The notes beneath the pieces were generated by a model. The model had not been told where the DNA came from and searched no databases. It was given only the letters and a program-made list of their open reading frames with translations. Made by a program: the position numbers and the translations under genes. From Brasilonema angustatum HA4187-MV1 (GTDB lineage: Bacteria; Cyanobacteriota; Cyanobacteriia; Cyanobacteriales; Nostocaceae), in assembly GCA_019359695.1 (NCBI GenBank), contig JAHHGV010000056.1, positions 1 through 49,103 of the forward strand: 49,103 nt of DNA, written 5' to 3'. This document shows, piece after piece, positions 14,249-43,688 of this stretch (the first letter of the stretch is position 1; each line of letters starts with the position of its first letter).

Positions 14249-15343
14249 ATGATTGTCGTCATCAAATCCCAAACTCCCGCATCTGAAATCGAAAGAATCA
14301 TTCAAGAACTGAGCCATTATCCCGTAACAACCGAAAAAGTTGTCGGTAAAGACAAAGTTGTTATCGGCTTGGTAGGTGATACAAGTGTTCTTTCTCCTGA
14401 ACACGTCCAACAAATCAGTCCATTTATCGAACAGGTGATTCGCGTGAAACAGCCTTTCAAACGGGTTTCGTTAGAATATCGCTATGGTGAACCAAGCGAA
14501 GTCGTTGTTCCAACTCCCAATGGTCCAGTCACTTTTGGTCAAAATCATCCTTTAATTGTAGTCGCTGGACCTTGTTCAGTTGAAAACGAAGAAATGATTG
14601 TGGAAACAGCACAAGTCGTAAAAGCCACTGGTGCACAGTTTCTTCGGGGAGGTGCGTACAAACCTCGTAGCTCACCTTATGCTTTCCAAGGACATGGCGA
14701 AAGCGCTTTATCTCTGTTAGCAACAGCCCGCGAAGTCACTGGACTAGGAATTATCACAGAAGTGATGGATACAGCCGACTTAGACAAAGTTGCAGAAGTT
14801 GCAGATGTGGTGCAAATTGGTGCTCGCAATATGCAGAACTTCTCCTTACTGAAGAAAGCAGGTGCTACTGGTAAACCAATTCTGCTTAAGCGGGGGCTGT
14901 CTGCGACAATTGAAGAATGGTTGATGGCTGCTGAATACATTCTGGCTGCTGGTAATCCAAATGTGATTTTGTGTGAACGCGGAATTCGCAGCTTTGACAA
15001 GCAATATACAAGAAATGTTCTAGATCTATCTGTAGTACCTGTATTGCGTGGACTGACCCATTTGCCAATTATGATTGACCCTAGTCATGCCACTGGCTAC
15101 TCTAAGTTTGTACCAACAATGGCAAAGGCAGCTATAGCAGCTGGTACAGATTCCTTGATGATTGAAGTTCACCCCAATCCCTCCAAAGCATTATCAGATG
15201 GTCCTCAATCTCTGACACCACCGGATTTTGTGGAACTCATGCAGGAACTTGCTCCGCTTGCCCAATTCTTCGGACGTGGAACAAAGTCTGGTTTCACAAC
15301 TACACCATTTGCTACCAAAACTCTTTCGACTGTAGGTGCCTAA
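14249..15343 (+). CDS. aroF: 3-deoxy-7-phosphoheptulonate (DAHP) synthase, type I-beta
   Basis: 364 residues. It condenses phosphoenolpyruvate and erythrose 4-phosphate to DAHP, the first committed step to aromatic amino acids. An N-terminal ferredoxin-like regulatory domain (about 1-75) precedes the barrel, as in Thermotoga-type enzymes, where it carries feedback control. Barrel landmarks are VVAGPCSVEN (107 on), FLRGGAYKPRSSPYAFQGHG, ITEVMD, QIGARNMQNF, KPILLKRG, ILCERGIRSFD, PIMIDPSHATG and IEVHPNPSKALSDGPQSL. GAGG 10 bases before ATG 14249 is a good ribosome site. It leads the trpEG-C-A-B block, so it is probably a dedicated copy raising chorismate supply for bis-indole synthesis. Confidence 0.95.
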   Translation: MIVVIKSQTPASEIERIIQELSHYPVTTEKVVGKDKVVIGLVGDTSVLSPEHVQQISPFIEQVIRVKQPFKRVSLEYRYGEPSEVVVPTPNGPVTFGQNHPLIVVAGPCSVENEEMIVETAQVVKATGAQFLRGGAYKPRSSPYAFQGHGESALSLLATAREVTGLGIITEVMDTADLDKVAEVADVVQIGARNMQNFSLLKKAGATGKPILLKRGLSATIEEWLMAAEYILAAGNPNVILCERGIRSFDKQYTRNVLDLSVVPVLRGLTHLPIMIDPSHATGYSKFVPTMAKAAIAAGTDSLMIEVHPNPSKALSDGPQSLTPPDFVELMQELAPLAQFFGRGTKSGFTTTPFATKTLSTVGA

Positions 15344-15866
15344 GTTGAGCAATCATCAGTGGTTTCTCTAGGGTAGGTAATATCATGTTTACACCAATGA
15401 CTCATCGATTTGCCTACCTCAGATTCTTTAATCATTCTGAAATTATTTCGTTAAGGCAATCATGTGTGCGTATTATTCTTTCAGTTTGACTAGAAATACA
15501 GTAGAAAAATACGCACAAACTAATTTGCTCGCATTTTCTGATTCTAAAACTATAATTGACACTGCTGTTAAATCTTAAGAAATTTAATACCGACAACAAC
15601 TTGACAAAACTCCTGAATTTCTGACCAAATCTTTTGTAGATACCAAAATGACTACAGGCACAATAGATATTTTGATACTGAACGCTCCAGAAGCATTTAC
15701 TTCTCAAAACTGCATAAGTGAAATTGAACTACACCTATTTAATATCGGGTAGTTGCTGTCAATCAACAATCACTCAGAAAAACCGTGTCCTGCACTCAAC
15801 TTTGTCAGCAAGTCGTCAAATTATTCGGGTGATGATTTTTAAGTTAACTTTAAGAGGGTCATATCT
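15344..15866. other. Spacer between aroF and trpEG
   Basis: No convincing ORF. TGTGCGTATT (15465-15474) and AATACGCACA (15508-15517) form an inverted repeat that could fold in a leader RNA. A separate promoter for trpEG may lie here; AGAGGGTC just before ATG 15867 is a usable ribosome site. Confidence 0.4.
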
Positions 15867-18062
15867 ATGTATTCTGACACACAATCCTACACAACTCAAG
15901 GTGGAATATTTGTATCACGCTCCGTAACCAATACTTCTATAGAGTCGGCAATTGATGAGGTTTTGATACGTCTGGATTCCCAACGCGGAGGGTTGTTGGC
16001 AAGTAGCTATGAATATCCAGGACGCTACAAACGATGGGCGATCGGTTTTGTTAATCCGCCTTTAGAACTTGTTACCTGCGATAACACTTTTACAATTACG
16101 GCTCATAATGAGCGAGGCAAGATACTGCTAGATTATCTAGCAGAGAACCTATTGGATCAACCATATCTTCAAGCTGTTAATAAAGAAAACAAGCGTATTA
16201 TCGGCTCTGTCAAACCAACTGAACGTCTCTTCTCAGAAGAAGAACGCAGTAGACAACCTTCTGTTTTCAGTGTTGTTCGCGAGATATTATCTATCTTCCA
16301 CAGTCCAGTAGATGAAAACTTGGGACTTTATGGTGCATTTGGCTATGACTTAGTTTTCCAATTTGAGCAAATGCCAAAGCATCTGGAACGTTCAGCAGAC
16401 CAAAGAGACTTGGTACTATATCTACCTGATGAGTTGTTAGTTGTTGACTACCACCTGCAACAGGCATTCAGAGTGCAATATGATTTTGTCACCAACAATG
16501 GTAGCACTCGGGATTTACCTCGCACGGGTGAAGTGATCGATTACCGAGGTAAGCGTTTAAGTGCGACTCAAACCTCTGATCATGCGCCAGGAGAATATGA
16601 ACAACAAGTCACCAAAGCACTCGATTATTTCCGTCGTGGTGATTTATTTGAAGTTGTTCCCAGTCAAAGCTTCTTTCAAACCTGTGAAAAATCCCCAACC
16701 CAACTTTTCCGCACACTCAGGGAAATTAATCCCAGTCCCTATGGATTCATCTTTAATTTAGGTGGAGAATATCTGATTGGTGCATCTCCAGAAATGTTTG
16801 TGCGTGTTGAGGGCAGACGTGTTGAAACTTGCCCAATCAGTGGTACAATCCGTCGAGGAGAAACCGCGATTGATGATGCAGCGCAAATCCAAAAGCTGTT
16901 GAACTCGCGTAAAGATGAATCTGAACTCACGATGTGTACCGACGTAGACCGCAACGACAAATCGCGGATTTGTGAGCCAGGGACTGTGCGAGTCATAGGT
17001 CGTCGCCAAATTGAATTGTATAGCCATCTGATCCATACAGTAGACCATGTAGAAGGCGTGCTGCAACCAGAAGCTGATGCTTTGGATGCATTCCTCACGC
17101 ATTTGTGGGCAGTCACAGTCACAGGAGCACCAAAACGCTCAGCCATGCAGTTTCTCGAACAAAATGAGCGCAGTCCCAGACGTTGGTATGGTGGAGCAGT
17201 TGGAGGTTTAAATTTTAAAGGCAACTTGAATACTGGTCTGATTTTGAGAACTATCCGACTAAAAGACTCAATTGCACAGGTACGAGTTGGTGCAACAGTT
17301 CTTTATGACTCAGAGCCAGAAGCAGAGGCACAAGAAACTATTACTAAAGCTAGTGCCTTATTCCAAACCCTTCAAGAAGCGACACATAAAAATGTCCAAT
17401 TGTCAAAAATGTCAACCCTTGACATTCAAGAAGCCAATCCAGGGGCGGGCAAACGTGTCTTGCTAGTTGACTATGAAGACTCATTTCTTCATACCCTAGC
17501 AAATTACATCCGTCAAACTGGTGCCACAGTCACAACACTACGGCATGGTTTTGCAGAATCAGTTTTTGATACAGAAAAACCTGACTTGGTTGTATTATCT
17601 CCTGGTCCTGGAAAACCAAGTGACTTTCGTGTTGCAGAGACAATCGCAGCCTGCAAAAAACGGCAAATTCCCATATTTGGTGTGTGCTTGGGCTTACAAG
17701 GAATAGTCGAGGCACACGGTGGAAAACTGGGAGTTCTGGATTATCCCCAGCATGGTAAGGTATCTATGGTATCTGTGGTTGATCCAGATTCTGTGACCTT
17801 CAAAGGTTTACCACAATCGTTTGAAGTTGGTAGATACCACTCATTGTATGCACTCCCCGAAAGCCTACCTGCAGAACTCAAAGTAACCGCCATGTCTGCA
17901 GATGGTGTGATTATGGGCATTGAGCATCGCACATTACCAATTGCTGCCGTTCAGTTCCATCCAGAATCTATCATGACTTTAGCAGGAGGAATAGGCTTAA
18001 CAATTGTTAAAAATGTAGTCCATGAATTTATGGCTACAATTCCCTCCTCAGCCCTTGCATAA
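15867..18062 (+). CDS. trpE: Anthranilate synthase, fused TrpE-TrpG
   Basis: 731 residues. The enzyme makes anthranilate from chorismate and glutamine. The TrpE half (about 1-500) shows the chorismate-binding signatures GDLFEVVPSQSFF, NPSPYGFIFNLGGEYLIGASPEM, CPISGTIRRG, ELTMCTDVDRNDKSRICEPG, HTVDHVEG and LWAVTVTGAPKRSAM. The TrpG half (about 525-725) is a class I glutamine amidotransferase: VLLVDYEDSFLHTLANY, VVLSPGPGKPSDF, nucleophile Cys607 in GVCLGLQGIVEAHGG, and AVQFHPESIMT with the His-Glu pair. Fused TrpEG proteins are often secondary-metabolism copies. It is followed after 78 bases by trpC. No trpD or trpF is present here, so those steps must come from elsewhere in the genome. Confidence 0.96.
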   Translation: MYSDTQSYTTQGGIFVSRSVTNTSIESAIDEVLIRLDSQRGGLLASSYEYPGRYKRWAIGFVNPPLELVTCDNTFTITAHNERGKILLDYLAENLLDQPYLQAVNKENKRIIGSVKPTERLFSEEERSRQPSVFSVVREILSIFHSPVDENLGLYGAFGYDLVFQFEQMPKHLERSADQRDLVLYLPDELLVVDYHLQQAFRVQYDFVTNNGSTRDLPRTGEVIDYRGKRLSATQTSDHAPGEYEQQVTKALDYFRRGDLFEVVPSQSFFQTCEKSPTQLFRTLREINPSPYGFIFNLGGEYLIGASPEMFVRVEGRRVETCPISGTIRRGETAIDDAAQIQKLLNSRKDESELTMCTDVDRNDKSRICEPGTVRVIGRRQIELYSHLIHTVDHVEGVLQPEADALDAFLTHLWAVTVTGAPKRSAMQFLEQNERSPRRWYGGAVGGLNFKGNLNTGLILRTIRLKDSIAQVRVGATVLYDSEPEAEAQETITKASALFQTLQEATHKNVQLSKMSTLDIQEANPGAGKRVLLVDYEDSFLHTLANYIRQTGATVTTLRHGFAESVFDTEKPDLVVLSPGPGKPSDFRVAETIAACKKRQIPIFGVCLGLQGIVEAHGGKLGVLDYPQHGKVSMVSVVDPDSVTFKGLPQSFEVGRYHSLYALPESLPAELKVTAMSADGVIMGIEHRTLPIAAVQFHPESIMTLAGGIGLTIVKNVVHEFMATIPSSALA

Positions 18063-18075
18063 TCACCTCTGTTAT

Positions 18076-18102: not shown

Positions 18103-18140
18103 GACTCTCCCTTTGTTGAACTAATAACCACTATAAACAA

Positions 18141-18989
18141 ATGCTAAATATTCACCAGCAATCAACTCAAGCAACTACGTCTACCAAATCGCGCCATATT
18201 CTCGAAGAAATTGTTGAGCATAAACAACAAGAAGTTGCGCTCATGAAACAGCAACTACCAATAGCCGACTTAAAACTTCAGGTCAATATTGCTCCTCCTG
18301 TGCGAAATTTCTTGAATGCCATACGGCAAAATTATACTCCTCCTAGCGTTATTGCAGAGGTCAAGAAAGCCTCACCAAGTAAAGGAGTTATTCGTGCTGA
18401 TTTTGAACCAGTAAAAATTGCCCAAGCATATGAGCGAGGCGGCGCGACTTGTATTTCTGTGCTAACTGACGAGAAATTTTTTCAGGGCGGTTTTAAGAAT
18501 TTGCGACTGATTAGAAATAATGTAGAGTTGCCGCTACTTTGCAAAGAGTTTGTTATAGATCCTTACCAAATTTATCTAGCGCGAGTCAATGGTGCAGATG
18601 CAGTGCTACTCATTGCTGCTATTTTAAACGACGAAACACTGCAACATTTTCTAAACATTATTCAGCATTTGGGCATGACTCCATTGGTGGAAGTCCATAC
18701 TTTGACTGAACTTGACCGAGTACTGGCATTATCCAATGTGCAACTTGTCGGAATTAACAACCGCAATTTGGAAGACTTTACCCTTGACATAGAAATCACG
18801 AAACACCTGTTGAGAGAACGTCAACAAAAGTTAAGTGATTTAGATATTACAATCGTGAGTGAGTCTGGTTTGTACACATCTTCTGATTTAGCTTTTGTAT
18901 CTCAGGCGGGAGCTAAAGCTGTGTTGGTAGGAGAATCTTTAGTCAAGCAAGCTGATTTAGAGCAAGCTGTCAAGGAGTTAAGAATGTAA
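18141..18989 (+). CDS. trpC: Indole-3-glycerol phosphate synthase
   Basis: 282 residues, full family length. It closes the indole ring (CdRP to indole-3-glycerol phosphate). Landmarks are [15 protein letters not shown] with the catalytic Lys, [65 protein letters not shown] and [11 protein letters not shown] then [10 protein letters not shown]. It carries an ~35-residue leader, as usual in cyanobacteria. No strong ribosome site precedes ATG 18141. It lies within the dedicated Trp supply block. Confidence 0.95.
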
Positions 18990-19070: not shown

Positions 19071-19886
19071 ATGACTTCTATCTCAGAACAGTTTGAATAT
19101 TTACGCACAAAAAACCAATGTGCTTTAATGCCCTTCATCACAGCAGGCGATCCAGATTTGGAAACAACAGCCGAAGCCCTAAAAATATTAGACGCCAATG
19201 GTGCAGATTTCATAGAACTAGGAGTACCCTACTCAGATCCGTTGGCGGATGGACCAGTGATTCAAGCGGCTGCTACTCGTGCGCTTAAGGGGGGAACTCG
19301 ACTAGCTCATGTTTTAGAAATGGCGCAAACAGCCACTAAGAGTGTGCGATCGCCCATCATCCTCTTCGCCTATTACAACCCAATTTTAAATCTCGGCATC
19401 CAACAATTCCTCAAGCGAGTTGCTGATTCTGGAATCAAGGGGTTAATCGTACCGGATTTACCCTTAGAAGAAGCAGACAATTTATTGAAATCTGCTGACA
19501 GTGTAGGAATTGAAGTCACACTATTAATCACTCCCAACACTCCCAAACAGCGAATTGAGGCGATCGCTCGTCAATCTCGTGGGTTTATTTACTTAGTTAG
19601 TGTCACAGGTGTCACAGGCATACGTTCACAAATCCAGACACGCGTAAAAGATGTGCTCAAAGAAATCCGCAGCGTCACAAACAAGCCAATAGCCGTTGGT
19701 TTTGGTATATCTACCCCAGAACAAGCTCATCAAGTTCAAGACTGGGGCGCAGATGGAGTGGTTGTGGGAAGCGCCTTTGTGAAACGCTTGGGAGAAAACA
19801 CACCGAACCAAGGACTGCGAGTTATTAAAGATTTCTGTACCGATTTGAAAGCAGCAATTACCCCCACTGCGGGAATTAGAAAGTAA
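19071..19886 (+). CDS. trpA: Tryptophan synthase alpha chain
   Basis: 271 residues. It splits indole-3-glycerol phosphate to indole and glyceraldehyde 3-phosphate. Seen are [35 protein letters not shown] with the catalytic Glu and Asp, [46 protein letters not shown] and [14 protein letters not shown] then [10 protein letters not shown]. Following trpC by 81 bases, it is probably co-transcribed and partners the TrpB encoded at 20082. Confidence 0.95.
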
Positions 19887-20081: not shown

Positions 20082-21308
20082 ATGTTAGCAGATACACCTA
20101 GAACAACTCAACAACCCGATGCATTAGGCAGATTTGGTCAATTTGGGGGCAAGTATGTACCCGAAACATTAATGCCTGCACTTTCGGAATTAGAAGCAGC
20201 GTATCAAAAATACCGCAATGATCCAGATTTTCAGAATGAACTACAGGGACTACTACGCGACTACGTAGGACGTGCTACTCCCCTATACTTTGCCGAACGC
20301 CTGACAGCACACTACGCCAAACCAGATGGAACTGGACCGCAAATTTACTTAAAAAGAGAAGACTTAAACCATACAGGCGCACACAAAATTAATAACGCCC
20401 TAGCTCAAGTATTACTCGCCAAACGGATGGGCAAACAGCGGATCATAGCTGAAACCGGAGCCGGTCAGCATGGTGTTGCAACCGCCACAGTCTGCGCCCG
20501 TTTTGGTCTGGAGTGTATGATTTACATGGGCGTCCATGACATGGAACGGCAAGCCTTGAATGTATTTCGGATGCGCTTGATGGGAGCAGAAGTTCGTCCA
20601 GTGGAAGCAGGAACTGGAACCCTCAAGGATGCAACATCAGAAGCGATTCGGGATTGGGTAACGAATGTGGAAACCACCCATTACATTTTAGGTTCCGTTG
20701 CAGGTCCCCATCCCTACCCGATGATCGTCCGAGACTTTCAAGCAATCATTGGTAAAGAAACTCGCAGCCAGTCTCAAGAAAAATGGGGTGGACTACCAGA
20801 TATTCTGCTTGCTTGTGTTGGCGGAGGTTCCAATGCAATGGGGCTTTTCCATGAATTTGTCAATGAACCATCTGTACGCCTGATTGGAGTTGAGGCGGCG
20901 GGTGAAGGAATTAATACTGAAAAACACGCAGCAACTTTGACACTAGGAAAAGTCGGTGTTTTGCACGGTGCAATGAGTTATGTTTTGCAAGATGAGGATG
21001 GTCAGATCACAGAAGCACACTCTATCAGTGCAGGGTTAGATTATCCTGGTGTTGGTCCAGAACATAGTTATTTGAAAGAGATAGAACGTGCTGAATACTA
21101 CAGTGTGACTGACCAGCAGGCGTTGGAAGCGTTTAAACGTGTGTCGCTACTGGAGGGGATTATTCCAGCACTAGAGACTTCTCATGCGATCGCTTTGTTG
21201 GAAACTCTTTGTCCACAACTGACTGGTTCTCCTAAAATTGTCATCAATTTTTCTGGACGTGGTGACAAGGATGTGCATACTGTTGCAAAATTCTTGGATA
21301 CTTTTTAA
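20082..21308 (+). CDS. trpB: Tryptophan synthase beta chain
   Basis: 408 residues, TrpB1 type. It joins indole and serine to L-tryptophan using PLP. Seen are [38 protein letters not shown] with the PLP Lys, [14 protein letters not shown], the phosphate-binding GGGSNAMG, and [18 protein letters not shown] good ribosome site (GGAG, 9 bases upstream) fixes ATG 20082. It is the last gene of the aroF-trpEG-trpC-trpA-trpB block and is followed by a hairpin (21361-21388). Its product is the likely substrate of the amino acid oxidase encoded at 29769. Confidence 0.96.
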
Positions 21309-22905: not shown

Positions 22906-23163
22906 GATTACAACGATCAATCAACAATATAACCTCATGACAAATGTAATGGTTTGGAGATGACATTTATTAGATGTAGAGCAAGGGTGTTTGGAAATAA
23001 ATTGAGAGACAAGAACATAAATAAACCTGAGTTCGACATCAGAAAATTGCTTCAAACTCTTACCTAACAAAAGCCTGAGAAATACTGCACTCTGTAGAAG
23101 TCAAGAGTTTAATACCAATTTTAAAAAATAATAACAACCAAATTTTGAACGGTGATAAATCCC

Positions 23164-25681: not shown

Positions 25682-25720
25682 GTAAAAGTTGAATTTTTGC
25701 TCTCAAAAATAAATAACGAA

Positions 25721-29585: not shown

Positions 29586-29768
29586 ATGTATAGTATCAAG
29601 TTCGCTTAATCGCTTATAAATTATGCATTAACCCTGCTCCCCTTGCTCCCTGCTCCCTGTTCCCCAAGTGAAGATACTTCCTGATAAGTTCACAAATTAA
29701 ATGCATAAAAAAAGTTCCTCTCCCGGTATAAAATTTTGAATCAATTTATTGATTGGAGGAACCAGAAT

Positions 29769-35000: not shown

Positions 35001-35459
35001 CGTAATCCTTCCTTAGATTACCGAGATTACAACACCAACGTTGTTACAGTCCCCCAAACCAGAGCAGTCATGGAGATATTTAACGAAACTTATTTCCTAA
35101 TGACGCAACTTATGGTACAACACTTTGGGTTAATGCCCACTGGTAGTCTGCGGCGCTCAAAGCTGATGAATGCTGCCATTGACGTGATGACAGGTATGAT
35201 GCGTCCTTTAGGAGAGTTGCTCATGAGTATGCCTTCAGGCAAAAGCGGTAAAACAGCCGGACCATCCTTTGAGATAGAATCCCCCAGTTATATCCCGACA
35301 CCAGAAATCGCAATGAATGCGATCGCCCGTCGATTTGAGCGACTAGGACAGCGATCGCGTGAGTGCGGAGTCATCCCCAACAGTGTCTGCGAAATCTTTG
35401 ATTTCTACGCCAGATTCTTTGATGATTTGGCTCGTCATCCCCAGTCGTTGGCTCATTGA
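32100..35459 (+). CDS. Indole-3-pyruvate imine dimer / chromopyrrolic acid synthase (VioB/RebD/StaD family)
   Basis: 1119 residues, in the size range of VioB, RebD and StaD. These haem proteins couple two indole-3-pyruvate imines; RebD and StaD release chromopyrrolic acid. The family is unmistakable: MSILDFPRLHLLGFARIHAP at the start, LWGHYNEYVKTSFNRARF, SVYQFTIPKDAKDFL, VFSLADQCKVETYARLMWQM with YYMPPTRDMS, a ferritin-like segment from about residue 695 (ELEVAVMLQYVYAGYSVPNY, EISREEMIHFLMVNNILMAI), GGEHRLFLRDDFNKVHPDYQ, and the C-terminal GSLRRSKLMNAAIDVMTGMM. It is the signature gene of the cluster. There is no VioE gene beside it, arguing for an indolocarbazole rather than violacein product. 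No strong ribosome site precedes ATG 32100. Confidence 0.95.
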   Translation: MSILDFPRLHLLGFARIHAPTGHKNGLVDVSSNTVYMNGKPFDQHRGASEYHEYLYKLGPRFNAQGELDENGRFSMAMGSDFGGNGHFSIEAQIVSTQREFGQIDQRDPVVGRSVDLWGHYNEYVKTSFNRARFFESDPASNWTNTIMLGQLAFGRQGVSHEVPYMLSAPISGMQLARWQNFDHIRELPQHCLNSEFKRASVYQFTIPKDAKDFLWDEEAAKSPTVSLLREAMNRDDVLGLVVQLGISNMSAPVQPDLPTFWELHGTIGLWCKDELSTYPHGRLLTPRRAAESETKPAQMSNLTLQVTPQGVSLNMVTAVPCVGRAPKPGPGPTHAIASKLDLGDLEVRTVHSKRLIARIPKEEYQHQAHQRTSGIVDVPLAEQFENLYDEIEQQGLCIIQTAPNGQQQILVQEEKINLQVDDACLFIEHPNWKQNQDHAVELEVRSFVRGRPAPVESVYLRQFYNPRAFPQLRYEFESNPTNVDKTFHFPRNSEMEIVHFKSGLRDSEGEFTPTCAFSTDHEGRAWVTVRGARPGTTRVLLSAHYDELLCDPHNLDEAEIAYDNDDKLGFWSGAGFFAVRVMSDDWHLDEIPNEAVDFNLIYEHVLAFYELSFSFMKVDVFSLADQCKVETYARLMWQMSDPRNKYKTYYMPPTRDMSQAKSMLLLKFLQNQQRVGYVPSPAPEPKRSQRTLQTREELVSALKQAAELEVAVMLQYVYAGYSVPNYVTGEEYVRRGLWTPEQLHLACGDGKEVRSYGMRGVLLEISREEMIHFLMVNNILMAIGEPFYPAVPNFKELNGRFPIDVDFALEPLNATSLQRFLRLEMPDFLEENLSDEPVGGDPTVHRLHGYGSLSELYHQIRDGLKNIPDLFMVKKGQVGGEHRLFLRDDFNKVHPDYQFQVDDLNSALFAIDLIVEQGEGCHAQSPKFDRSHYQQFRRLAEALSHEQVSNGETRHKAPWNPSYPALRNPSLDYRDYNTNVVTVPQTRAVMEIFNETYFLMTQLMVQHFGLMPTGSLRRSKLMNAAIDVMTGMMRPLGELLMSMPSGKSGKTAGPSFEIESPSYIPTPEIAMNAIARRFERLGQRSRECGVIPNSVCEIFDFYARFFDDLARHPQSLAH

Positions 35460-35514: not shown

Positions 35515-35652
35515 CGAACCCGAAGGGTGAACAGTTATCAGTTATCGGTTATCAAAATTTCTTGTCCACGAGTACAAAAAAAATGCATAAACTCATTTTT
35601 CCGACCGTATGGATAACTATCAACCGATAACTGAGAACTGGAGAACTGAGTG

Positions 35653-36327
35653 ATGAAATTATATTACGCTCCTGCATCATCTTATTCCCAACGAGTCCTA
35701 ATCGCCCTGTACGAGAAGGGAGTTGATTTTACAGCGATTCCGGTAAATCTTTTTGACCCCGAAAGCCGTGAAGAGTATATGCAAATTAACCTTTTTGCCA
35801 AGATACCCACCTTAGTAACTGACAAAGGAAATGTCATATTTGAGGCTAATATAATCATTGAATACCTTGACCAACGTTTTCCAAATACATCCCGCCTCAT
35901 TCCTGGCGATTCAGAACAAGCCCTAGAGGTGCGGATGGTGGAACGGATGATTGATGTGTACATCAACAGTGGACGGGAGGCGCTATTTGCTGATACCCAA
36001 CGTCCAGTTGAGGAACGAGGCAAAAAAGAAGTTATCAAAGCAAAGCGATTATTGGAAACAGCGATCGCCATGCTTGATGAAAAACTGGCGACTCGTACCT
36101 GGCTGGGAGGAGAAGAGTTTACTTTAGCTGACTGTGCTGCTGCTCCCACCCTCGCTTACCTGCGTATGGTTTACAACTACAATCACTTTTCCAACTTGAC
36201 AAATTACGTCAAACGTTTGGAGTCCAGACCATCTGTAGCACAAGTTTTCAACTCCGGACGCAACCAGATGACACAGATGCTGTCTGAACTGCGCAATCCG
36301 CTGCAACTAGTACCGTTAGAAAGTTAA
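35653..36327 (+). CDS. Glutathione S-transferase family protein
   Basis: 224 residues from ATG 35653 (a GTG three bases earlier is also in frame). The N-terminal thioredoxin fold reads KLYYAPASSYSQRVLIALYE, with a Ser-rich active-site position, then AKIPTLVTDKGNVIFEANII with the cis-Pro and the Glu-Ala glutathione-binding pair. The helical C-domain has WLGGEEFTLADCAAAPTLAY with the N-capping Asp. Zeta/theta-like. GSTs may add glutathione, isomerise, or remove it from reactive intermediates. It lies between the dimer synthase and the first P450 gene on the same strand, so a tailoring or detoxifying role in the pathway is likely but unproven. Confidence 0.88.
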   Translation: MKLYYAPASSYSQRVLIALYEKGVDFTAIPVNLFDPESREEYMQINLFAKIPTLVTDKGNVIFEANIIIEYLDQRFPNTSRLIPGDSEQALEVRMVERMIDVYINSGREALFADTQRPVEERGKKEVIKAKRLLETAIAMLDEKLATRTWLGGEEFTLADCAAAPTLAYLRMVYNYNHFSNLTNYVKRLESRPSVAQVFNSGRNQMTQMLSELRNPLQLVPLES

Positions 36328-36465: not shown

Positions 36466-37719
36466 ATGTCTAGTTCAACAATTGAAAGATTAAACCCGTT
36501 TATAAAAGAAGTTATCCAAGACCCCTATACTGTTTATCGTCGTTACAGAGAGGAAGACCCCGTTCATTGGGGAGTCTCAGCGAATCCCAAGTTGCCTGGT
36601 GCTTGGTACATTTTCCGTCATGAAGACGTGATGAAAGTTCTCGAAGACCGGAGATTTGGTCGCGAGACTTTGAACGAACGAGAAGATGTTGAAACCACCC
36701 CAGTGCCAACAGCATATAATGCGTTCTTGGCTCTCGTCAGTAATTGGATAGTCTTCCGGGAACCACCCAATCACACACGGCTAAAATCGTTGGCTAGCAA
36801 AGCATTTACCCCAAGAATTGTTGAAAACATCCGTCCAGCGATCTACGAAATTGCAGACAATCTGTTGGATAAAATCCAGAACCGTGGAGAGATGGATTTG
36901 GTTGAGGAGTTCGCTTTCCCTCTGCCAACAAAAGTTGTCGCCACCATGCTAGGTGCTGATCCAGAAGATTTGCCATTGTTCCGTGAATGGGCACTAGCGA
37001 TGCAACAAGCCAGCGCCTCTCGTTTGCAACCACCACCAGAAGTCTACCAACGTGCAAACGAGGCTGCTCAAGCATTCGTCGATTATTTCACTCCTTTAAT
37101 CACAGAACGACGTGCCAATCCGCGCGAGGATCTGATTTCGGCACTCGTCAAAGCTGCTGATGAGGGCGACAAACTGAGCGACTTTGAGATCGTCGCCACT
37201 TGTACCCACCTGTTGACTGCAGGACACGAAACCACAATTAACCTGATTGCCAAGGGGACACTGGCATTACTTCAGCATCCAGAAGCACTCCAAAAATTAC
37301 GCTCCCACCCCGAACTCATCCCTGCTGCAATAGAGGAGTTCGTCCGCTACGACACCCCAATCCAGATGGTTACACGCTGGGCTTATGCAGACGTTGAAGT
37401 TGGCGGTAAGTTGATTAAGCGCGGGGATAGCGTGGGAGTGATGCTTGGCTCAGCCAACCGAGATCCTTCTCAATTCAAAAACCCCGATGTTCTGGATATA
37501 CAGCGCGTAGAAAACAAACACAGTGCCTATGGCGGCGGTATCCATTACTGTCTTGGTTCATCGCTAGCTCGTGCTGAAGGTCAAATTGCTATGAATGTCT
37601 TGCTCAATCGTTTGCCTGAGCTTCGTTTGGCAGATGAAAAAATTGAGTGGGCAAACAACATTGTGTTTCATGGTCCTAATCATTTGCAGGTTAGTTTTAA
37701 AAAACCTGCGATCGCTTAA
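36466..37719 (+). CDS. Cytochrome P450 (first of two)
   Basis: 417 residues, soluble bacterial class. The I-helix carries a normal oxygen-activation motif AGHETT (252-257), the K-helix ExxR is E291-R294 (EFVRYD), and the haem loop is AYGGGIHYCLG with Cys362; the usual Phe of this loop is Tyr. A TTGGAGAT ribosome site precedes ATG 36466. In indolocarbazole pathways one P450 (StaP/RebP) makes the aryl-aryl bond of chromopyrrolic acid and a second (StaN) can join the sugar. With the canonical acid-alcohol pair this one could be an oxygen-inserting or ring-closing enzyme; sequence alone does not decide. Confidence 0.92.
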   Translation: MSSSTIERLNPFIKEVIQDPYTVYRRYREEDPVHWGVSANPKLPGAWYIFRHEDVMKVLEDRRFGRETLNEREDVETTPVPTAYNAFLALVSNWIVFREPPNHTRLKSLASKAFTPRIVENIRPAIYEIADNLLDKIQNRGEMDLVEEFAFPLPTKVVATMLGADPEDLPLFREWALAMQQASASRLQPPPEVYQRANEAAQAFVDYFTPLITERRANPREDLISALVKAADEGDKLSDFEIVATCTHLLTAGHETTINLIAKGTLALLQHPEALQKLRSHPELIPAAIEEFVRYDTPIQMVTRWAYADVEVGGKLIKRGDSVGVMLGSANRDPSQFKNPDVLDIQRVENKHSAYGGGIHYCLGSSLARAEGQIAMNVLLNRLPELRLADEKIEWANNIVFHGPNHLQVSFKKPAIA

Positions 37720-37930: not shown

Positions 37931-38305
37931 ATGAACGTTATACAAGGTTTGACAAAAGCTCTCGTCTACGTCACAGACATAGACAAACAAATCGACTTTT
38001 ATCAAAATAAATTGGGTTTAACAATCAAATGTCGGCAAAGTATAGAAGGACGCATTGATAAACAATGGGTGGAGTTTATCACAGGCGAATGCACTTTGGT
38101 TTTGCACGGCAATATGCACAAACAAATCGGTACAGATAAACCCACACTCTTAGCATTTCACGTAGATGATATTGATGTGGCTTATAAAGAATTGACAGAA
38201 CGCGGCGTTAAACTTAGCGCAATTCGTTCTCCCTCGCCTGGGTTAAAAATTGCCGAAGGTGTTGATCCAGAAGGTAACCCGTTCAGTATTGATTGTCAGA
38301 AATGA
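37931..38305 (+). CDS. VOC (glyoxalase/bleomycin-resistance/dioxygenase) family protein
   Basis: 124 residues, a single VOC module with the paired beta-alpha-beta-beta-beta pattern: ALVYVTDIDKQIDFYQNKLG, then LVLHGN, LAFHVDDIDVAYKELTERGV and DPEGNPFSIDCQK. The metal-ligand positions His (LAFHV) and Glu (DPEGN) are present. VOC proteins range from lyases and dioxygenases to drug-binding resistance proteins. Between two P450 genes on the same strand, it could bind or transform a pathway intermediate, or sequester the product. The specific activity is unknown. Confidence 0.85.
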   Translation: MNVIQGLTKALVYVTDIDKQIDFYQNKLGLTIKCRQSIEGRIDKQWVEFITGECTLVLHGNMHKQIGTDKPTLLAFHVDDIDVAYKELTERGVKLSAIRSPSPGLKIAEGVDPEGNPFSIDCQK

Positions 38306-38354: not shown

Positions 38355-39611
38355 ATGATGGGACAACATTCAACACAACCTGAAAAGAAAACTTGCCCTC
38401 ATCTTGGGGAAAAATACCAACCATTTGTCAACCCACAACTTGACGATCCATATTCGTTTTATAAAGTTGCAAGACAAGAAGAGCCGCTATTTCATAGCTT
38501 ATTATTAAACGGCTATGTTCTGACTAGCTATGATGAAATCTTAAAGGTACTTAAAGACCCAGCAAGATTTTCTTCAATGGATACTCTTGCTCCGGTGATC
38601 AAATTCACGCCTCAAACAGTTGAAGCCCTCAAGCAAGGTGTCCCCAAAGTTCGTGATTTAGTTAATAGCGACGGTGAAGAACACAAACGCTTGCGTGCTC
38701 CTTTCATGAGAGTATTTGCACCAGAGCGGATTGAGGCAATGGAAGGACCAATTCACACTATTGCTAACAGATTGGTAGACAATTTCGTTAATGATGGTCA
38801 CGCCGACATCATACGGCAATTTTCCTATCCACTACCGCTTGAAGCCATCCTCACCATGTATGGTATTCCTTCAGACAGGATGAAAGATCTCAAGAAGTGG
38901 TGCTATGACATGGATGAATTGCTGTCAACGCCAATGACGCCGGAACGTCAATTAGAATGTGCTCAAAGTTTTGTGTCAATGCAGCACTATGTTGTTAGTC
39001 TCATTGAGGAGCGACAGAAATCACCTCAAGATGATCTGATTAGCAATGTACTGTCCTCTGACCTAAACATGGTAGAGTTAGTCAGTATTTTATGTGGATT
39101 AGTACAAGCTGGTCATAAGACAAGTTCCCATCTGATTGGGAATGCTTTAAAACACTTGCTAGAGCAGCCTCAGTTATGGCAAACTATTTGTGACAATCCT
39201 TCACTCATTCCTGTTGCTCTTGAAGAAATACTAAGGTATGATGCTCCTGTCACATCAATGACTCGCACAACTACCCAAGAAGTTGAGCTAGCAGGAGTCA
39301 CCTTACCCAAGGGTACTCGAATCTATTTGATATATGGCTCTGCCAATCGGGATGAAACTAAATACAGCAATGCCGATAGTCTTGATTTAGAACGCTTCCA
39401 AGAGGTTACCCCTAACCATCTAGCGTTTGGTCATGGAACCCATCGTTGCATTGGTTCCCACTTTGCCCGTCGGGAAGCAAGGATTGCCCTGGAGATCTTA
39501 TCTAAGAGATTGCCAAATCTGCGACTGCGCCCCAACCAAGAACTAACCCACTCTCCAAATATGATATTCCGTGGTTACTCACACCTAGAGGTGGAGTGGG
39601 ATGTCGTGTGA
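38355..39611 (+). CDS. Cytochrome P450 (second), with altered I-helix
   Basis: 418 residues. The haem loop is canonical (AFGHGTHRCIG, Cys365), as is ExxR (E291-R294, EILRYD). The I-helix reads AGHKTS (252-257): the acidic residue normally preceding the conserved Thr is replaced by Lys. Loss of that acid is often seen in P450s that do not simply hydroxylate, and StaP-type enzymes couple indole rings by a radical route, so this gene is my candidate for the chromopyrrolic-acid coupling step; that is an inference. The start is ATG 38355, immediately followed by a second ATG. A hairpin overlaps the stop codon. Confidence 0.92.
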   Translation: MMGQHSTQPEKKTCPHLGEKYQPFVNPQLDDPYSFYKVARQEEPLFHSLLLNGYVLTSYDEILKVLKDPARFSSMDTLAPVIKFTPQTVEALKQGVPKVRDLVNSDGEEHKRLRAPFMRVFAPERIEAMEGPIHTIANRLVDNFVNDGHADIIRQFSYPLPLEAILTMYGIPSDRMKDLKKWCYDMDELLSTPMTPERQLECAQSFVSMQHYVVSLIEERQKSPQDDLISNVLSSDLNMVELVSILCGLVQAGHKTSSHLIGNALKHLLEQPQLWQTICDNPSLIPVALEEILRYDAPVTSMTRTTTQEVELAGVTLPKGTRIYLIYGSANRDETKYSNADSLDLERFQEVTPNHLAFGHGTHRCIGSHFARREARIALEILSKRLPNLRLRPNQELTHSPNMIFRGYSHLEVEWDVV

Positions 39612-39752: not shown

Positions 39753-39980
39753 ATGAGTCTGCCTCCAATTTTAAAGCTTGGTTCCGTAGATGCATCTGTA
39801 TCACAACTACAACGTGATTTGTCTGCAAAGGGATATCTTGACGCGACTGCAGTTAACGGCATATTTGATGAAGCAACCGAAGAAGCAGTCAAAAAATTTC
39901 AACAGGACAACGACCTAACAGTAGATGGAGTTGTCGGACCTCAAACTGGTCAAAAATTAGGTGGTGGTCCTCCTGCATAA
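39753..39980 (+). CDS. Peptidoglycan-binding-domain microprotein, copy 1
   Basis: 75 residues, almost entirely one PG_binding_1 domain: LGSVDASVSQLQRDLSAKGY, then GIFDEATEEAVKKFQQDNDL and DGVVGPQTGQKLGG. There is no signal peptide, transmembrane segment or partner catalytic domain, unusual for this fold, which normally guides hydrolases to cell wall. AAGGAG precedes ATG 39753. First of three tandem copies. Confidence 0.9.
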   Translation: MSLPPILKLGSVDASVSQLQRDLSAKGYLDATAVNGIFDEATEEAVKKFQQDNDLTVDGVVGPQTGQKLGGGPPA

Positions 39981-39989
39981 AACTTAGAG

Positions 39990-40516
39990 TCAGTCCCTAT
40001 AGAAAAGTAAGAAGGATGAAGGTTGAAGAATCACGCTCTTTTTGTTTCTTTTCCGACTTCATACTTCTTACTTGTTTTTAAAATCTCAATTTCAAACAGC
40101 AGTTGATTTTGTCATTCATTCAGGAGAAACACAAAAATGAGCGCACCTCCAAATTTAAGTCGTGGTTCCACAGATCCAATTGTACAAGGACTGCAACGCG
40201 ACCTTTCTGCAAAGGGATATCTCGACGCCAGTGCAGTTAGCGGCACATTTGATGAAGCAACCGAAGAAGCAGTCAAAAAATTTCAACAGGATAATGGTTT
40301 AACAGTGGATGGTGTCGTCGGATCTCAAACTGGTCAAAAATTAGGTGGTCCTCCTGCATAAAACTTAGAGTCAGTCCCTATAGAAAAGTAAGAAGGATGA
40401 AAGTTGAAGAATCACAAATCTATATTTATTTTCTGATTTCATAGTTCTTACTTGTTTTTAAAATCTCAATTTCAGACAGCAGTTGATTTTGTCATTCATT
40501 CAGGAGAAACACAAAA
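39990..40516. repeat. Duplicated spacer-plus-gene units (about 380 bp)
   Basis: The gene starts are 384 and 380 bases apart. The spacers after copies 1 and 2 share AACTTAGAGTCAGTCCCTAT then AGAAAAGTAAGAAGGATGAA, and ACAGCAGTTGATTTTGTCAT before the ribosome site. Confidence 0.85.
40137..40361 (+). CDS. Peptidoglycan-binding-domain microprotein, copy 2
   Basis: 74 residues, near-identical in its second half to copy 1; it starts MSAPPNLSRGSTDPIVQGLQ. AGGAG precedes the ATG. The untranslated spacer before it repeats most of the spacer before copy 3, so whole gene-plus-leader units were duplicated. Confidence 0.9.
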   Translation: MSAPPNLSRGSTDPIVQGLQRDLSAKGYLDASAVSGTFDEATEEAVKKFQQDNGLTVDGVVGSQTGQKLGGPPA

Positions 40517-40741
40517 ATGAGCGCACCTCCAAATTTAAGTCGTGGTTCCACAGATCCAATTGTACAAGGACTGCAACGCGACCTTTCTGCAAAGGGATAT
40601 CTTGACACCAGTGCAGTTAGTGGCACATTTGATGAAGCCACTGAAGAAGCAGTTAAAGCATTTCAAAAGGACAATGGCTTAACACCAGATGGAGTTGTTG
40701 GACCGCAAACCGGTCAAAAATTAGGTGGTCCTCCTGTCTAA
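40517..40741 (+). CDS. Peptidoglycan-binding-domain microprotein, copy 3
   Basis: 74 residues. The first 30 are identical to copy 2; changes cluster at the end (KAFQKDNGLTPDGVVGPQTG). Same ribosome site. Followed 31 bases later by a strong hairpin, so the three copies probably form one transcription unit. Confidence 0.9.
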   Translation: MSAPPNLSRGSTDPIVQGLQRDLSAKGYLDTSAVSGTFDEATEEAVKAFQKDNGLTPDGVVGPQTGQKLGGPPV

Positions 40742-40772
40742 CCTAAACTCGTATAACTTAAATTATGACAAC

Positions 40773-40800: not shown

Positions 40801-40837
40801 CTATAGTGTTTTACTTTAAAGAGATGGAGAGTTAAAA

Positions 40838-41362
40838 ATGAGTACCCTTGAGAAAACTTCCGAATCTAATTTGTTAAAACCACCATCTTCTGGAATGAAT
40901 AGTATTCAAAGTGAGGTTTTTAAACGCAGTCTTCTGTGGCATGGTATTTTGTTCTGTACCATAGGATTTATCCTTGGCTTGTTGATCCCTTTGTATGCCA
41001 ATCCACGTGCGGGGCTAGCAGCCCACGCACTTTCAATCACACAGGGAATGTTCTTAGCAATCATCGGTTTATCTTATCCATACCTCAAGTTACCATTGTG
41101 GATTGCTAGAGCAAGTTTTTGGTCGTTTCTCATCAGTGCTTATGTTGGTGTGATTGGTCAGATTCTGGCAGCAGCATTTGCTTTAGTGAGGATTTTTCCG
41201 ATGACAGGACAGGGACTTCCCGAAGGTCCTGCTTGGTTGGAGACGGCTGTCGAAATACCTACCAAACTCATGACCACTTTTCTCCTTTTAGCCTGTTTTG
41301 TTATTCTCTATGGCTTAAGGCAAACTAAAAGTGGTTCTGCTTCACCAGAAGAATCTATTTAG
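40838..41362 (+). CDS. Four-helix membrane protein, styrene-oxide-isomerase / hydroxylaminobenzene-mutase-like
   Basis: 174 residues, four hydrophobic segments (about 33-53, 64-83, 92-118, 142-160). The pattern WHGILFCTIGFILGLL with His35, NPRAGLAAHALSITQGMFLA with His63, and the N/P/G placement match what I remember of styrene oxide isomerase (StyC) and hydroxylaminobenzene mutase (HabA/B). StyC-type enzymes use haem b ligated by the His equivalent to His63 and isomerise epoxides; mutases move a hydroxyl on aryl-N-OH compounds. GGAG lies 9 bases before ATG 40838. In this cluster it might isomerise an oxidised indole or a hydroxylamine. The family call is from memory of motifs, not a search. 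Confidence 0.7.
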   Translation: MSTLEKTSESNLLKPPSSGMNSIQSEVFKRSLLWHGILFCTIGFILGLLIPLYANPRAGLAAHALSITQGMFLAIIGLSYPYLKLPLWIARASFWSFLISAYVGVIGQILAAAFALVRIFPMTGQGLPEGPAWLETAVEIPTKLMTTFLLLACFVILYGLRQTKSGSASPEESI

Positions 41363-41490
41363 TCATTGCGATCTCATAACACAATAATAGACTTCTGCGA
41401 AAATTAGATTTGAACTCAAGCAAAATAAGGAGTAACGTCTTATTTTCAAAGATATCTATTATTTTTAGACACTGGTTTAGGGAGAATTCA

Positions 41491-41590
41491 ATGAAGTTTT
41501 TATCTTCGTTAATTACTATAATCTGATTGGGTACTGCTTTAACTTATAGTATTGAAGCGAGACAATCAAAACTTAGCCAAAATCTACATA
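41491..41590 (+). pseudogene. Broken signal-peptide leader upstream of the RidA gene
   Basis: ATG 41491 has a good ribosome site (GGGAG) and reads MKFLSSLITII, stop (TGA), then LGTALTYSIEARQSKLSQ in the same frame: a signal peptide interrupted at one codon (Trp TGG to TGA would restore it). The RidA body is in another frame, so a frameshift is also needed. This suggests that an exported RidA has lost its leader, or that there are sequencing errors here. Confidence 0.5.
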
Positions 41591-41998
41591 ATGTCATATT
41601 CCCCAGATTCTATAGAATATCTAACCTCTTCTGAGACCACATCTATGAATCTTCCCTTTTCGGAAGCAGTACGTGTTGGTAACATACTTTACCTCTCAGG
41701 AGTTATCGGAAACATTCCTGGAAAAAAACAGCTTGTAACTGGTGGAATAAAAGCTGAGACAAAGCAAACTATGGAGAATATTAAACGTATTATTGAGAGA
41801 CATGGTTCATCAATTGACCGAATTATTCAATCTAAAGTGATGCTTGCGGATATAAAAGAGTGGGGCGCTATGAACGAGGTTTATCTTACTTATTTTTCAC
41901 CGTCACAATTACCTGCAAGAAGTGCACTAGCAGCAAGCGGTTTAGCTTTAAATGCACGAGTGGAAATAGAATGTATAGCCATAGTCAACTCTCGTTAG
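41591..41998 (+). CDS. RidA-family enamine/imine deaminase
   Basis: 135 residues from ATG 41591. RidA proteins hydrolyse reactive enamines and imines to keto acids and ammonia. Seen are PFSEAVRVGNILYLSGVIGN, KQTMENIKRIIERHGSSIDR, SKVMLADIKEWGAMNEVY, and the active-site PARSALAASGLALNARVEIE, with the Arg that binds the substrate carboxylate. It is notable here because the oxidase of this cluster is predicted to release indole-3-pyruvate imine. The 5' region looks damaged (see 41491-41590), so expression and location are uncertain. Confidence 0.88.
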   Translation: MSYSPDSIEYLTSSETTSMNLPFSEAVRVGNILYLSGVIGNIPGKKQLVTGGIKAETKQTMENIKRIIERHGSSIDRIIQSKVMLADIKEWGAMNEVYLTYFSPSQLPARSALAASGLALNARVEIECIAIVNSR

Positions 41999-42053
41999 AT
42001 AGTTAAATTACCAGAATTTTCAAGCAAAGTTTAGTCACAAAAGAATAAAGACC

Positions 42054-43688
42054 ATGAATCAGTCAACTACAAGAAGCCAACCAAAAAGTTCAACAAATAT
42101 CTTCCGAGATAAGAATTTTTACATTATAAATTTTGTGACCGTGGTGGGAATTTTAGGGGGAACCCTCTATAACCCCGCACTACCAACCATACAAAAGTTT
42201 TTTAAAGTTACAGAACAGGATGCTTCATGGATATCGACACTTTTCCAGTTGCCCGGAGCTGTTATTACTCCAATATTTGGGATTTTAGCTGACGTTTTAG
42301 GCAGAAAGCAAGTCCTGATTCCTTCGCTGCTGGTGTTTGCCCTTGGTGCTGGGTTAAGCGGCTGGACATCTAATTTCAGAACCCATTTAGGAGGGCGATT
42401 TGTACAGGGTGTTGGTGCTGCTAGCTTAGAACCGCTACAACTTACTATTCTTAGCGATCTTTACCAAGGCAGAAAACTAGGGACTGCAATGGCATTTAAT
42501 GCCGGTTTGATTGGTATGAGTGGGGCACTTTTTCCCCTTATTGGTGGGATCTTAGGCGAGATTAACTGGCAATATACGTTTTTACCAGGGTTGGTTGCCA
42601 TTCCAATAGCATTTTTGGTTCTCGTGACACTGAAATTACCAAGACAACCACAGAACACAGAGAAATTTCAACTCAAATCCTATCTACAAAGTACCTGGAA
42701 CAGCATAAACAATCGTCACGTACTAGGGCTGTTGTTCGCAGTCATGTCTCTGTTTTTGCTGCAAACTTTATGTTTAACTTATATCCCATTCTTGGCGACA
42801 GAGAAGTTCAAAACATCAGATTGGCAAAATGGGATTGTCCTGACGAGTATGTCAATTGCGCTGGCGTTATTCGCTGCTCAATTGGGACGCTTGACTCAAA
42901 GTCTCTCGGAAATTAAACTTATCAAACTCTCTTTTATTCTCTTTGCAGTCGCGCTGTTGATTCTTCCTATTATTCCTAACTTTTGGTTGATATTCATCCC
43001 AATGTTTTTATTGGGTGCTGCTCAAGGTATCGCTCTTCCATCCTCCCAAGCACTGTTAGGAGGACTTTCTGCACAAGATTCTCGGGCAGGATTTATGGCG
43101 GTAAATACCTCAATTATGTCATGGGGACAGACACTTGGTCCGTTTCTGGGAAGTTTAGCCATCAGATTTTCGGGACTACCAGCAGTCTTTTATTCCAGCG
43201 CCGTCTTTGCCGTTGTTTCATTTGCAATTTTCAATTATTTCCTAACAACTAAAATATTTAATTTCACTGCCAAAACCGTACAGCTAGAACTTCCTGTGAA
43301 CACCGATGAAACAACTTTAATTCCACCACAAACTGCATCTCCGACAATTCTCCAACCATCTATTGCACAGCTATTGCATGTCCAAACTAACAGAGTCTTT
43401 GAATTGCCGGATCATTTTCAGGTGATTAATATCGGCAAGTCCAGCAATCGCATTATTCCCGAAGTGGACCTTTCAGATTTACCTAATTCTGAACTTGTCT
43501 CACGTGTTCACGCTCAGATTCGTTTCGACGGAAAGGAATACTATATCCAAGATCTGAACAGTTCAAACGGCACTTACATTAACAATTACCCAGTCATACC
43601 AGGTGTTTGGTACAAGTTAAAACCAGGTATTCGCATTGGTATTGGGCGGCGAGACACGATAACATTCATGTTTGCGCTTGATGAGTAG
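42054..43688 (+). CDS. MFS exporter fused to a C-terminal FHA domain
   Basis: 544 residues. Residues 1 to ~405 are a 12-14-segment MFS drug transporter (FGILADVLGRKQVLIPSLLV signature; GRFVQGVGAASLEPLQLTIL; NAGLIGMSGALFPLIGGILG). After a ~45-residue linker the last ~95 residues are an FHA domain with the phosphothreonine-binding residues in place: IGKSSNRIIP (461 on), SRVHAQIRF (Ser483, Arg484, His486) and DLNSSNGTYINN (500 on). FHA domains read phosphothreonine, so the exporter may be controlled by a Ser/Thr kinase. The MFS part is a paralogue of the 27616-28842 product. It follows the RidA gene by 55 bases. Confidence 0.9.
   Translation: MNQSTTRSQPKSSTNIFRDKNFYIINFVTVVGILGGTLYNPALPTIQKFFKVTEQDASWISTLFQLPGAVITPIFGILADVLGRKQVLIPSLLVFALGAGLSGWTSNFRTHLGGRFVQGVGAASLEPLQLTILSDLYQGRKLGTAMAFNAGLIGMSGALFPLIGGILGEINWQYTFLPGLVAIPIAFLVLVTLKLPRQPQNTEKFQLKSYLQSTWNSINNRHVLGLLFAVMSLFLLQTLCLTYIPFLATEKFKTSDWQNGIVLTSMSIALALFAAQLGRLTQSLSEIKLIKLSFILFAVALLILPIIPNFWLIFIPMFLLGAAQGIALPSSQALLGGLSAQDSRAGFMAVNTSIMSWGQTLGPFLGSLAIRFSGLPAVFYSSAVFAVVSFAIFNYFLTTKIFNFTAKTVQLELPVNTDETTLIPPQTASPTILQPSIAQLLHVQTNRVFELPDHFQVINIGKSSNRIIPEVDLSDLPNSELVSRVHAQIRFDGKEYYIQDLNSSNGTYINNYPVIPGVWYKLKPGIRIGIGRRDTITFMFALDE

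Follow-up and report, generated by a model that had tools for sequence, protein, structure and literature searches.

What does the gene cluster at positions 14249 to 43688 of contig JAHHGV010000056.1 from the cyanobacterium Brasilonema angustatum HA4187-MV1 produce, and does it belong with the known indolocarbazole clusters? The window analysed here, the whole stretch of 49,103 nucleotides, lies on one contig (C87 in our numbering) of an 8.5-Mb genome assembled in 98 contigs. An initial annotation, made from the sequence alone, had described an indolocarbazole-type cluster with an unusual enzyme complement. Scans with Pfam, NCBIfam and PDB upheld its gene list, with the genes at or near their annotated places, including the supply block, the oxidase, the dimer synthase, the RebC/StaC-like enzyme and two cytochromes P450. 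With a probability of about 0.8, the locus belongs to a Nostocales-type family of indolocarbazole clusters, and its most likely product is an oxidised relative of arcyriaflavin or K252c free of sugar and chlorine; we judge the cluster to be real and probably functional. Staurosporine is an indolocarbazole, and the question is of practical interest as well, the drug midostaurin being derived from staurosporine (PMC10851217).

Core enzymes of a probable indolocarbazole pathway

The assignment is carried by four genes:

29736–31322, plus strand: L-tryptophan oxidase, RebO/StaO-like, intact (PF01593, 187 bits)
32100–35459, plus strand: dimer synthase of the chromopyrrolic acid synthase type, RebD/StaD-like, 1119 aa (TIGR04492, 972.6 bits, cut-off 1250)
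36466–37719, plus strand: P450a, StaP/RebP-like aryl-coupling P450 (top PDB match 2z3t, 391 bits)
23152–24840, plus strand: RebC/StaC-like flavin enzyme (top PDB match RebC 2r0c, 623 bits)

The oxidase gene is open across 528 codons, and its product is 44–45% identical, over about 470 residues, to its counterparts in the actinobacterial clusters L043, L044 and L045; with the VioA model it scores only 46 bits (cut-off 600). Actinobacterial plasmid records were used as references because an Actinomycetota sample gave a match in one of 396 genomes, which was the centre genome itself. These features point to the flavin tryptophan oxidase (RebO/StaO) that indolocarbazole clusters possess.

The dimer synthase, for which a PDB search gave no match, is 43–45% identical to its counterparts in the three reference clusters and 37% identical to the violacein-type homologue of Chitinimonas (L034), a control locus that carries VioC, VioD and VioE. 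With the VioB model named in the list above, the RebD/StaD references scored 763, 664 and 721 bits and the Chitinimonas control 1737 bits, the window protein falling below the cut-off together with the former. In an unrooted tree of 50 synthase rows, 41 rows constituted a cyanobacterial group that includes the window (SH-aLRT, Shimodaira–Hasegawa-like approximate likelihood ratio test, 91); the nearest relative was the synthase of Brasilonema sp. CT11 (96% identity). Since the unrooted tree cannot place the three groups relative to one another, a rooted tree of the C-terminal part was built, with distant ferritin-like relatives as the root and 25 of the 50 synthase rows left out, thinned by hand. 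There the cyanobacterial and actinobacterial indolocarbazole-type synthases formed one group (ultrafast bootstrap (UFBoot)/SH-aLRT 94/92), and Chitinimonas VioB fell outside it (94/88). The synthase therefore appears, by sequence, to behave as RebD/StaD and not as VioB.

A violacein-type pathway could nevertheless be suspected, because the matched family model is named VioB and because VioE lies beside the synthase in three of the 41 cyanobacterial rows (L012, L013 and L021), two of which have VioC and VioD as well. The window synthase scores under the VioB cut-off, but so does that of L012 despite its VioC, VioD and VioE (984 bits, like the RebD-type proteins), so that the score alone is not exclusive. 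We rejected violacein largely on the missing VioE, and with VioC and VioD likewise not found in the window we consider it very improbable as the product.

P450a is 40–43% identical to the StaP-like P450 of L045 and the RebP-like P450 of L044, groups with RebP/StaP in a P450 tree, and contains the I-helix motif AGHET, which the references for StaP and RebP also have. Its top structural match, 2z3t, is presumably StaP itself. These data suggest that P450a is the StaP/RebP-type P450 of an indolocarbazole pathway; the phylogenetic comparison that the initial annotation had proposed for the dimer synthase sides with RebD/StaD for that enzyme and, extended to P450a, with RebP/StaP. The flavin enzyme is 47–50% identical to the three actinobacterial RebC/StaC-like proteins, and its second PDB match, 4eip, was nearly equal to the first (619 bits); we take 4eip to be RebC-10x, a mutant with StaC-like activity.

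Searches for halogenase, glycosyltransferase and violacein genes

Queries for VioC, VioD, VioE, glycosyltransferases (StaG-like ones included) and tryptophan halogenases gave no match in the window at E ≤ 1e-3, in agreement with the absence of halogenase, glycosyltransferase and VioE reported initially; the sole match of the query set was P450c against P450a. No N-glycosyltransferase (StaG/RebG) matched in the window, the rest of the genome not having been searched for one. Across the genome, the Trp_halogenase family (PF04820) gave one match of 39 bits (cut-off 21). This is weak evidence of a halogenase, because the match covers profile positions 1–94 only, the family also matches in five of 14 control genomes, E. 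coli included, and the protein concerned is a 353-aa FAD protein.

These results bear on whether the locus encodes a tjipanazole-like pathway without chlorination, leading to an indolo[2,3-a]carbazole minus the pyrrole ring or to a pyrrolo form. Tjipanazole D is described as requiring a tryptophan halogenase, a tryptophan oxidase, a chromopyrrolic acid synthase-like protein, a P450 and an FAD monooxygenase, and the pyrrolo ring is present only in tjipanazoles J–M (PMC10300848). Four of these five enzyme classes are present in the window, so that such a product is conceivable; it is nonetheless unlikely in our judgement, given that the tryptophan halogenase is missing from the window, that the genome offers just the partial family match, and that the glutathione S-transferase (GST), the VOC protein, the second P450 and an isomerase-like protein would need further explanation.

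Distribution of the family and exchange of tailoring modules

A synthase relative (E ≤ 1e-50) was found in 41 of 217 genomes of the same taxonomic family, the source genome included, and in 18 of 56 genera. The cluster type is widespread in same-family genomes and not singular. In an even sample of the phylum, seven of 386 genomes had a match at E ≤ 1e-3, two of them full length, the window's own included. In addition to the window we compared 46 stretches from relatives, drawn from two sets of 33 and 13; they stop at contig or flank limits, so that absence from a stretch is not absence from a genome. Co-occurrence was counted in 33 loci, obtained from the 46 by removing L022, which duplicates the contig L020 of the same strain, and 12 stretches that had less than 9 kb of downstream sequence.

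Tailoring genes vary around the synthase. As far as the retrieved stretches extend, P450a occurs in 25 rows of the cyanobacterial group (41 rows, window counted) and RebC in 25, with both in 16. Moreover, VioC, VioD and VioE adjoin a RebD-type synthase and a trp block in Anabaena azotica FACHB-119 (L012, 9887–23333) and Nostoc flagelliforme FACHB-838 (L013, 1400–22252). The NCBIfam cut-offs were passed by VioC, VioD and VioE of L012 and by VioE of L021, and the L013 proteins were assigned by 78–87% identity to those of L012. The synthases of both loci group with that of L011, a locus holding P450a and GST. Judged by their genes, L012 and L013 look like natural hybrids of the violacein and indolocarbazole pathways, and tailoring modules seem to have been swapped around one synthase type in this family. 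This swapping, together with a conserved Nostocales tailoring set, constitutes the strongest new point of the analysis.

Two side observations concern the same synthase superfamily. In a Nostocaceae genome (G436; L109, 1702–19461), a tryptophan-halogenase-like gene (47% identity to one of L044), an oxidase, VioE and a split synthase are followed by VioC, VioD and another oxidase; the product of this stretch may be a violacein relative that carries halogen. The VioB-family synthase is divided between two genes, encoding about 700 and 415 aa, in L031, L032, L033 and L109.

Observations that weigh against the assignment

Several observations count against the indolocarbazole assignment or its proposed end product. 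Regarding the phylogeny, the supports of 94 lie slightly below the level that the program marks with a star, very long branches lead to the outgroup, and the rooted tree does not settle the order of the cyanobacterial and actinobacterial branches within the synthase group.

Regarding the flavin enzyme, the ten positions that differ between the RebC and RebC-10x chains (2r0c and 4eip) were compared, with L029 left out. The window protein is mixed: it resembles StaC at 36, 46, 48 and 216 and RebC at 117, 231 and 239, and matches neither of them at 241, positions 37 and 38 being uninformative because the RebC-like reference of L044 has the other letters there. With these diagnostic residues mixed, the core formed may be either arcyriaflavin A (imide) or K252c (lactam).

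Furthermore, a RebC ortholog is missing in nine of 12 related genomes tested, eight of which have P450a; three genomes have an ortholog at 77–94% identity, all other matches being at 32–34%. A tryptophan oxidase relative was present in 11 of the 12, many of them unlinked. Because of the missing RebC, the pathway of close kin may end other than at the arcyriaflavin/K252c core. In the window itself the product might likewise be a rearranged or captured bisindole, such as an indolotryptoline or an indolocarbazole intermediate captured by GST or VOC. The eight genomes with P450a and without a RebC ortholog favour this idea, as do the joint presence of GST and P450a in 20 of the 33 loci (GST alone in three, P450a alone in one, neither in nine; the loci are related and the count is not independent) and the description of several clusters with enzymes that capture unstable indolocarbazole intermediates (PMC10851217). 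Yet the window retains a full-length RebC-like enzyme, and no imine reductase family turned up among the window proteins scanned, which makes a captured bisindole a rather doubtful outcome.

Finally, signs of loss are evident among the relatives. The oxidase of the nearest one, Brasilonema CT11 (L009, 8615–9220), is truncated, with only residues 327–528 of 528 matching, and Scytonema tolypothrichoides (G411, L007) has no oxidase relative at E ≤ 1e-40; the remainder of the cluster is present in both, and they are possible natural knock-outs. L016 and L017 consist of oxidase and synthase only, the L017 oxidase being split over two frames. A signal-peptide-like N-terminus precedes the RidA-family protein in frame in L002, L003, L006 and L030; that frame (41491–41600 in the window) is interrupted or shifted in the window, L004, L008, L009, L025 and L097. 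Since the oxidase is lost, truncated or split in relatives and the RidA start is interrupted in the window, the family, as far as its sequences tell, is under turnover, and the activity of any single cluster is not given by its presence; individual members of the family may have lost activity. These losses, and the broken RidA frame, could also mean that the cluster in the window is decaying and yields either no product or chromopyrrolic acid alone. This is improbable, since the reading frames of its oxidase, synthase, RebC-like enzyme and two P450s are uninterrupted and of normal length; L002 (Brasilonema sp. UFV-L1, which has RebC as well) and L097 also keep their oxidases (519 and 534 aa).

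Precursor supply block

Five genes on the left of the cluster form the supply block:

14249–15343, plus strand: DAHP synthase, entry to the shikimate pathway (PF00793, 290 bits; NCBIfam NF009933, 654 bits, above the cut-off of 486)
15867–18062, plus strand: fused anthranilate synthase TrpEG (TIGR01815, 1201 bits, above the cut-off of 739)
18141–18989, plus strand: TrpC, indole-3-glycerol phosphate synthase (PF00218, 292 bits)
19071–19886, plus strand: TrpA, tryptophan synthase alpha (PF00290, 308 bits)
20082–21308, plus strand: TrpB, tryptophan synthase beta (TIGR00263, 629 bits, above the cut-off of 392)

The initial annotation had proposed a dedicated block and a full route from chorismate precursors. 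The core enzymes of such a route are present, but the trpD query found nothing in the window and no trpF was seen among the open reading frames scanned, so the block itself falls short of a full set; TrpD adjoins the block or the oxidase in L011, L013, L018, L026, L099 and L105. Two genes of the genome exceed the curated TrpB cut-off, the window copy and one on contig C64, and there is one other strong TrpEG. Among 13 genomes counted, the eleven with a synthase have two to four TrpB copies above the cut-off, and the two without one at E ≤ 1e-50 (G395 and G398) have one each. On these counts the block is an additional tryptophan set, which is consistent with dedication to the pathway without proving it. 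The second TrpEG/TrpB set, on C64 (L059), stands beside a prephenate dehydrogenase, AroB and a phosphodiesterase, surroundings that may resemble those of a scytonemin supply locus.

Tailoring genes, microproteins and exporters

The remaining genes of the right-hand part, and a first exporter, are as follows:

27616–28842, minus strand: MFS1, an MFS exporter without an FHA domain (PF07690, 207 bits)
35650–36327, plus strand: GST-like protein (PF13417, PF00043; under every curated NCBIfam cut-off)
37931–38305, plus strand: VOC/glyoxalase-fold protein (PF00903, 39.7 bits)
38355–39611, plus strand: P450b, the second P450, with AGHKT instead of the usual acid (PF00067)
39753–39980, plus strand: PG_binding_1 microprotein 1 (PF01471, 69.9 bits)
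40137–40361, plus strand: PG_binding_1 microprotein 2 (PF01471, 67.5 bits)
40517–40741, plus strand: PG_binding_1 microprotein 3 (PF01471, 68.9 bits)
40838–41362, plus strand: four-helix membrane protein of 174 aa with a styrene-oxide-isomerase-like fold (AlphaFold model, Foldseek)
41552–41998, plus strand: RidA-family imine deaminase, start uncertain (PF01042, 99 bits)
42054–43688, plus strand: MFS exporter with a C-terminal FHA domain (PF07690, 185 bits; PF00498, 52 bits)

The GST, VOC, RidA, aldolase and PG-binding genes reported initially were all recovered by family scans, and the isomerase-like protein by Foldseek. P450b is a divergent P450, 24% identical to the second P450 of L045, which is taken as StaN. 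The usual I-helix acid is absent in all 15 aligned P450b rows, replaced by Lys in 13 and Ala in two. The alignment and the P450 tree used one P450b per locus, excluding a second copy in L101 (which has Lys at this site too), a fragment in L100 and the fragments of L014, L015 and L027; the tree also omitted the split P450b of L003.

The 174-aa membrane protein had no sequence match in Pfam, NCBIfam or PDB. Its AlphaFold model (mean pLDDT, the per-residue model confidence, 72.7) gave styrene oxide isomerase 8pnu as the first Foldseek match (probability 1.00, E 0.029, 18% identity, TM-scores 0.49/0.55), later matches having E values of 0.2 or worse and probabilities of 0.89 or less. H35, H63 and Y102 are invariant in an alignment of 11 sequences. 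In styrene oxide isomerase, H58 is the haem ligand and Y103 the catalytic tyrosine (PMC11374702); H63 and Y102 may correspond to these two residues, but none that clearly match N99 and D95 could be seen. The neighbouring GST and VOC genes make an epoxide or another reactive intermediate conceivable, although across the loci the occurrence of the isomerase-like gene does not follow that of P450b, no pairing of the two being found (P = 0.72, n = 33).

The three PG_binding_1 proteins, of 74–75 aa, lie in tandem at 39753–40741 with no signal peptide evident by eye; 17 relatives have them, in one to five copies each. FHA is a phosphopeptide-reading domain, and the FHA tail of the exporter retains the SRVHA and SSNGT pattern. 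The domain is present in 17 of the 46 relatives' stretches. The FHA exporter and the microproteins occur together in 16 loci, the exporter alone in one and neither in 16 (n = 33; the loci are related, and the P value is not independent).

Proposed pathway

From the gene identities, the placement of the core enzymes, the motifs and the distribution, we infer each reaction, its order and the product as follows; the core steps and the RebC/StaC branches are summarised in PMC10851217. The tryptophan genes of the block would boost precursor supply, and the oxidase would convert tryptophan to the indole-pyruvate imine. Two imines would be joined by the RebD/StaD-type synthase into chromopyrrolic acid, with no VioE to divert the dimer. 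P450a would then couple the C2 positions of both indoles, and the RebC/StaC-like enzyme would steer the unstable intermediate to the arcyriaflavin A or K252c core. P450b, GST, VOC and the isomerase-like membrane protein may modify or protect this core, and the MFS pumps may export the product.

A bolder and decidedly speculative extension, which we regard as unlikely, is that the RebD-type synthase acts in Nostocales as a natural hub that exchanges whole tailoring modules (indolocarbazole, violacein-type or none). The branch to which the window belongs would add a distinct module, composed of P450b without the usual acid, GST, VOC and a haem membrane enzyme resembling styrene oxide isomerase, and this module would process a reactive, perhaps epoxidised indolocarbazole to an undescribed scaffold. 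An MFS pump would export the product and sense phosphorylation state through its FHA domain, as would fit a kinase-inhibiting product.

Borders and neighbouring genes

Two further genes lie between the supply block and MFS1:

21411, minus strand: HpaI-type aldolase (Pfam/NCBIfam/PDB scans)
25697–27454, plus strand: OprB/SLH porin, role in the cluster uncertain (PF04966, PF00395)

Among the 46 relatives' stretches, many of which end before that point, L009 alone showed the aldolase, which is probably outside the pathway. The porin adjoins MFS1 in L007, L009 and L097 too. On the left, the supply block begins at 14249 and is preceded by a caspase-domain gene ending at 13434. On the right, the FHA–MFS gene ends at 43688, and the next genes encode a protein of the phosphonate-binding type (PhnD) and one with a Tll0287 domain; this border is supported by L016 and L017, in which the PhnD/Tll0287/caspase neighbourhood recurs beside oxidase and synthase only. 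Caspase-domain (Peptidase_C14) genes stand on either side of the cluster, at 11125–13434 and 46007–48070, and a relative of the right-hand one is common to those two minimal loci.

Upstream of the oxidase, a GC-rich (about 63%) intergenic island at 29101–29600 contains an exact 19-nt inverted repeat, and only pieces of the island recur in relatives. An open reading frame at 29209–29586 was rejected as a gene, since it lies inside this repeat island and has no protein relative among the 42 loci compared.

Comparison with known systems

The openly licensed literature searched, in which the tjipanazole (tjp) cluster appears by description only, revealed neither a characterised cluster with this gene order nor any title on an experimental study of this cluster type or on a calothrixin gene cluster. 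Software has called an indolocarbazole cluster in a Chlorogloeopsis genome (PMC11392904), a staurosporine cluster in Mastigocoleus (PMC4732328) and, for Brasilonema CT11, a single indole cluster (PMC7503407), presumably loci seen in this analysis, and antiviral indolocarbazoles from a Nostocaceae alga are named in the reference list of a review (PMC12842986). The family is chemically little studied and offers candidate new tailoring chemistry. Its natural variants, without RebC, with two genes only, or with a RebD-type synthase beside violacein enzymes, make the branch point between violacein and indolocarbazoles testable.

Of the reference loci L044 and L045, whose types are inferred from their gene tables, the rebeccamycin-type L044 (Pseudonocardia plasmid pBCI2-2) shares with the window an oxidase, a RebD-type synthase, a RebC-like protein and a P450 that are neighbours there, but has two tryptophan halogenases, glycosyltransferases and methyltransferases nearby, none of which were found in the window. 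The staurosporine-type L045 (Streptomyces clavuligerus plasmid) likewise shares the oxidase, the synthase, a StaP-like P450 and a RebC/StaC-like protein; it adds sugar genes, a sugar-transfer protein and the second P450, whereas the window showed no sugar genes. The violacein cluster of Chitinimonas contains a dimer synthase of the same superfamily, accompanied by relatives of VioC, VioD and VioE that the window lacks.

The closest known system is the tjipanazole cluster of Symphyonema bifilamentata 97.28 ('Fischerella ambigua 108b'), the sole cyanobacterial indolocarbazole with a described cluster in the literature searched. A cblaster search reportedly placed tjp in no other genome then available (PMC8065813). 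Compared through its description in a review, the tjipanazole cluster differs from the window in the tryptophan halogenase that tjipanazole D needs; it shares with the window its cyanobacterial origin, the oxidase, the synthase-like protein, a P450 and an FAD monooxygenase.

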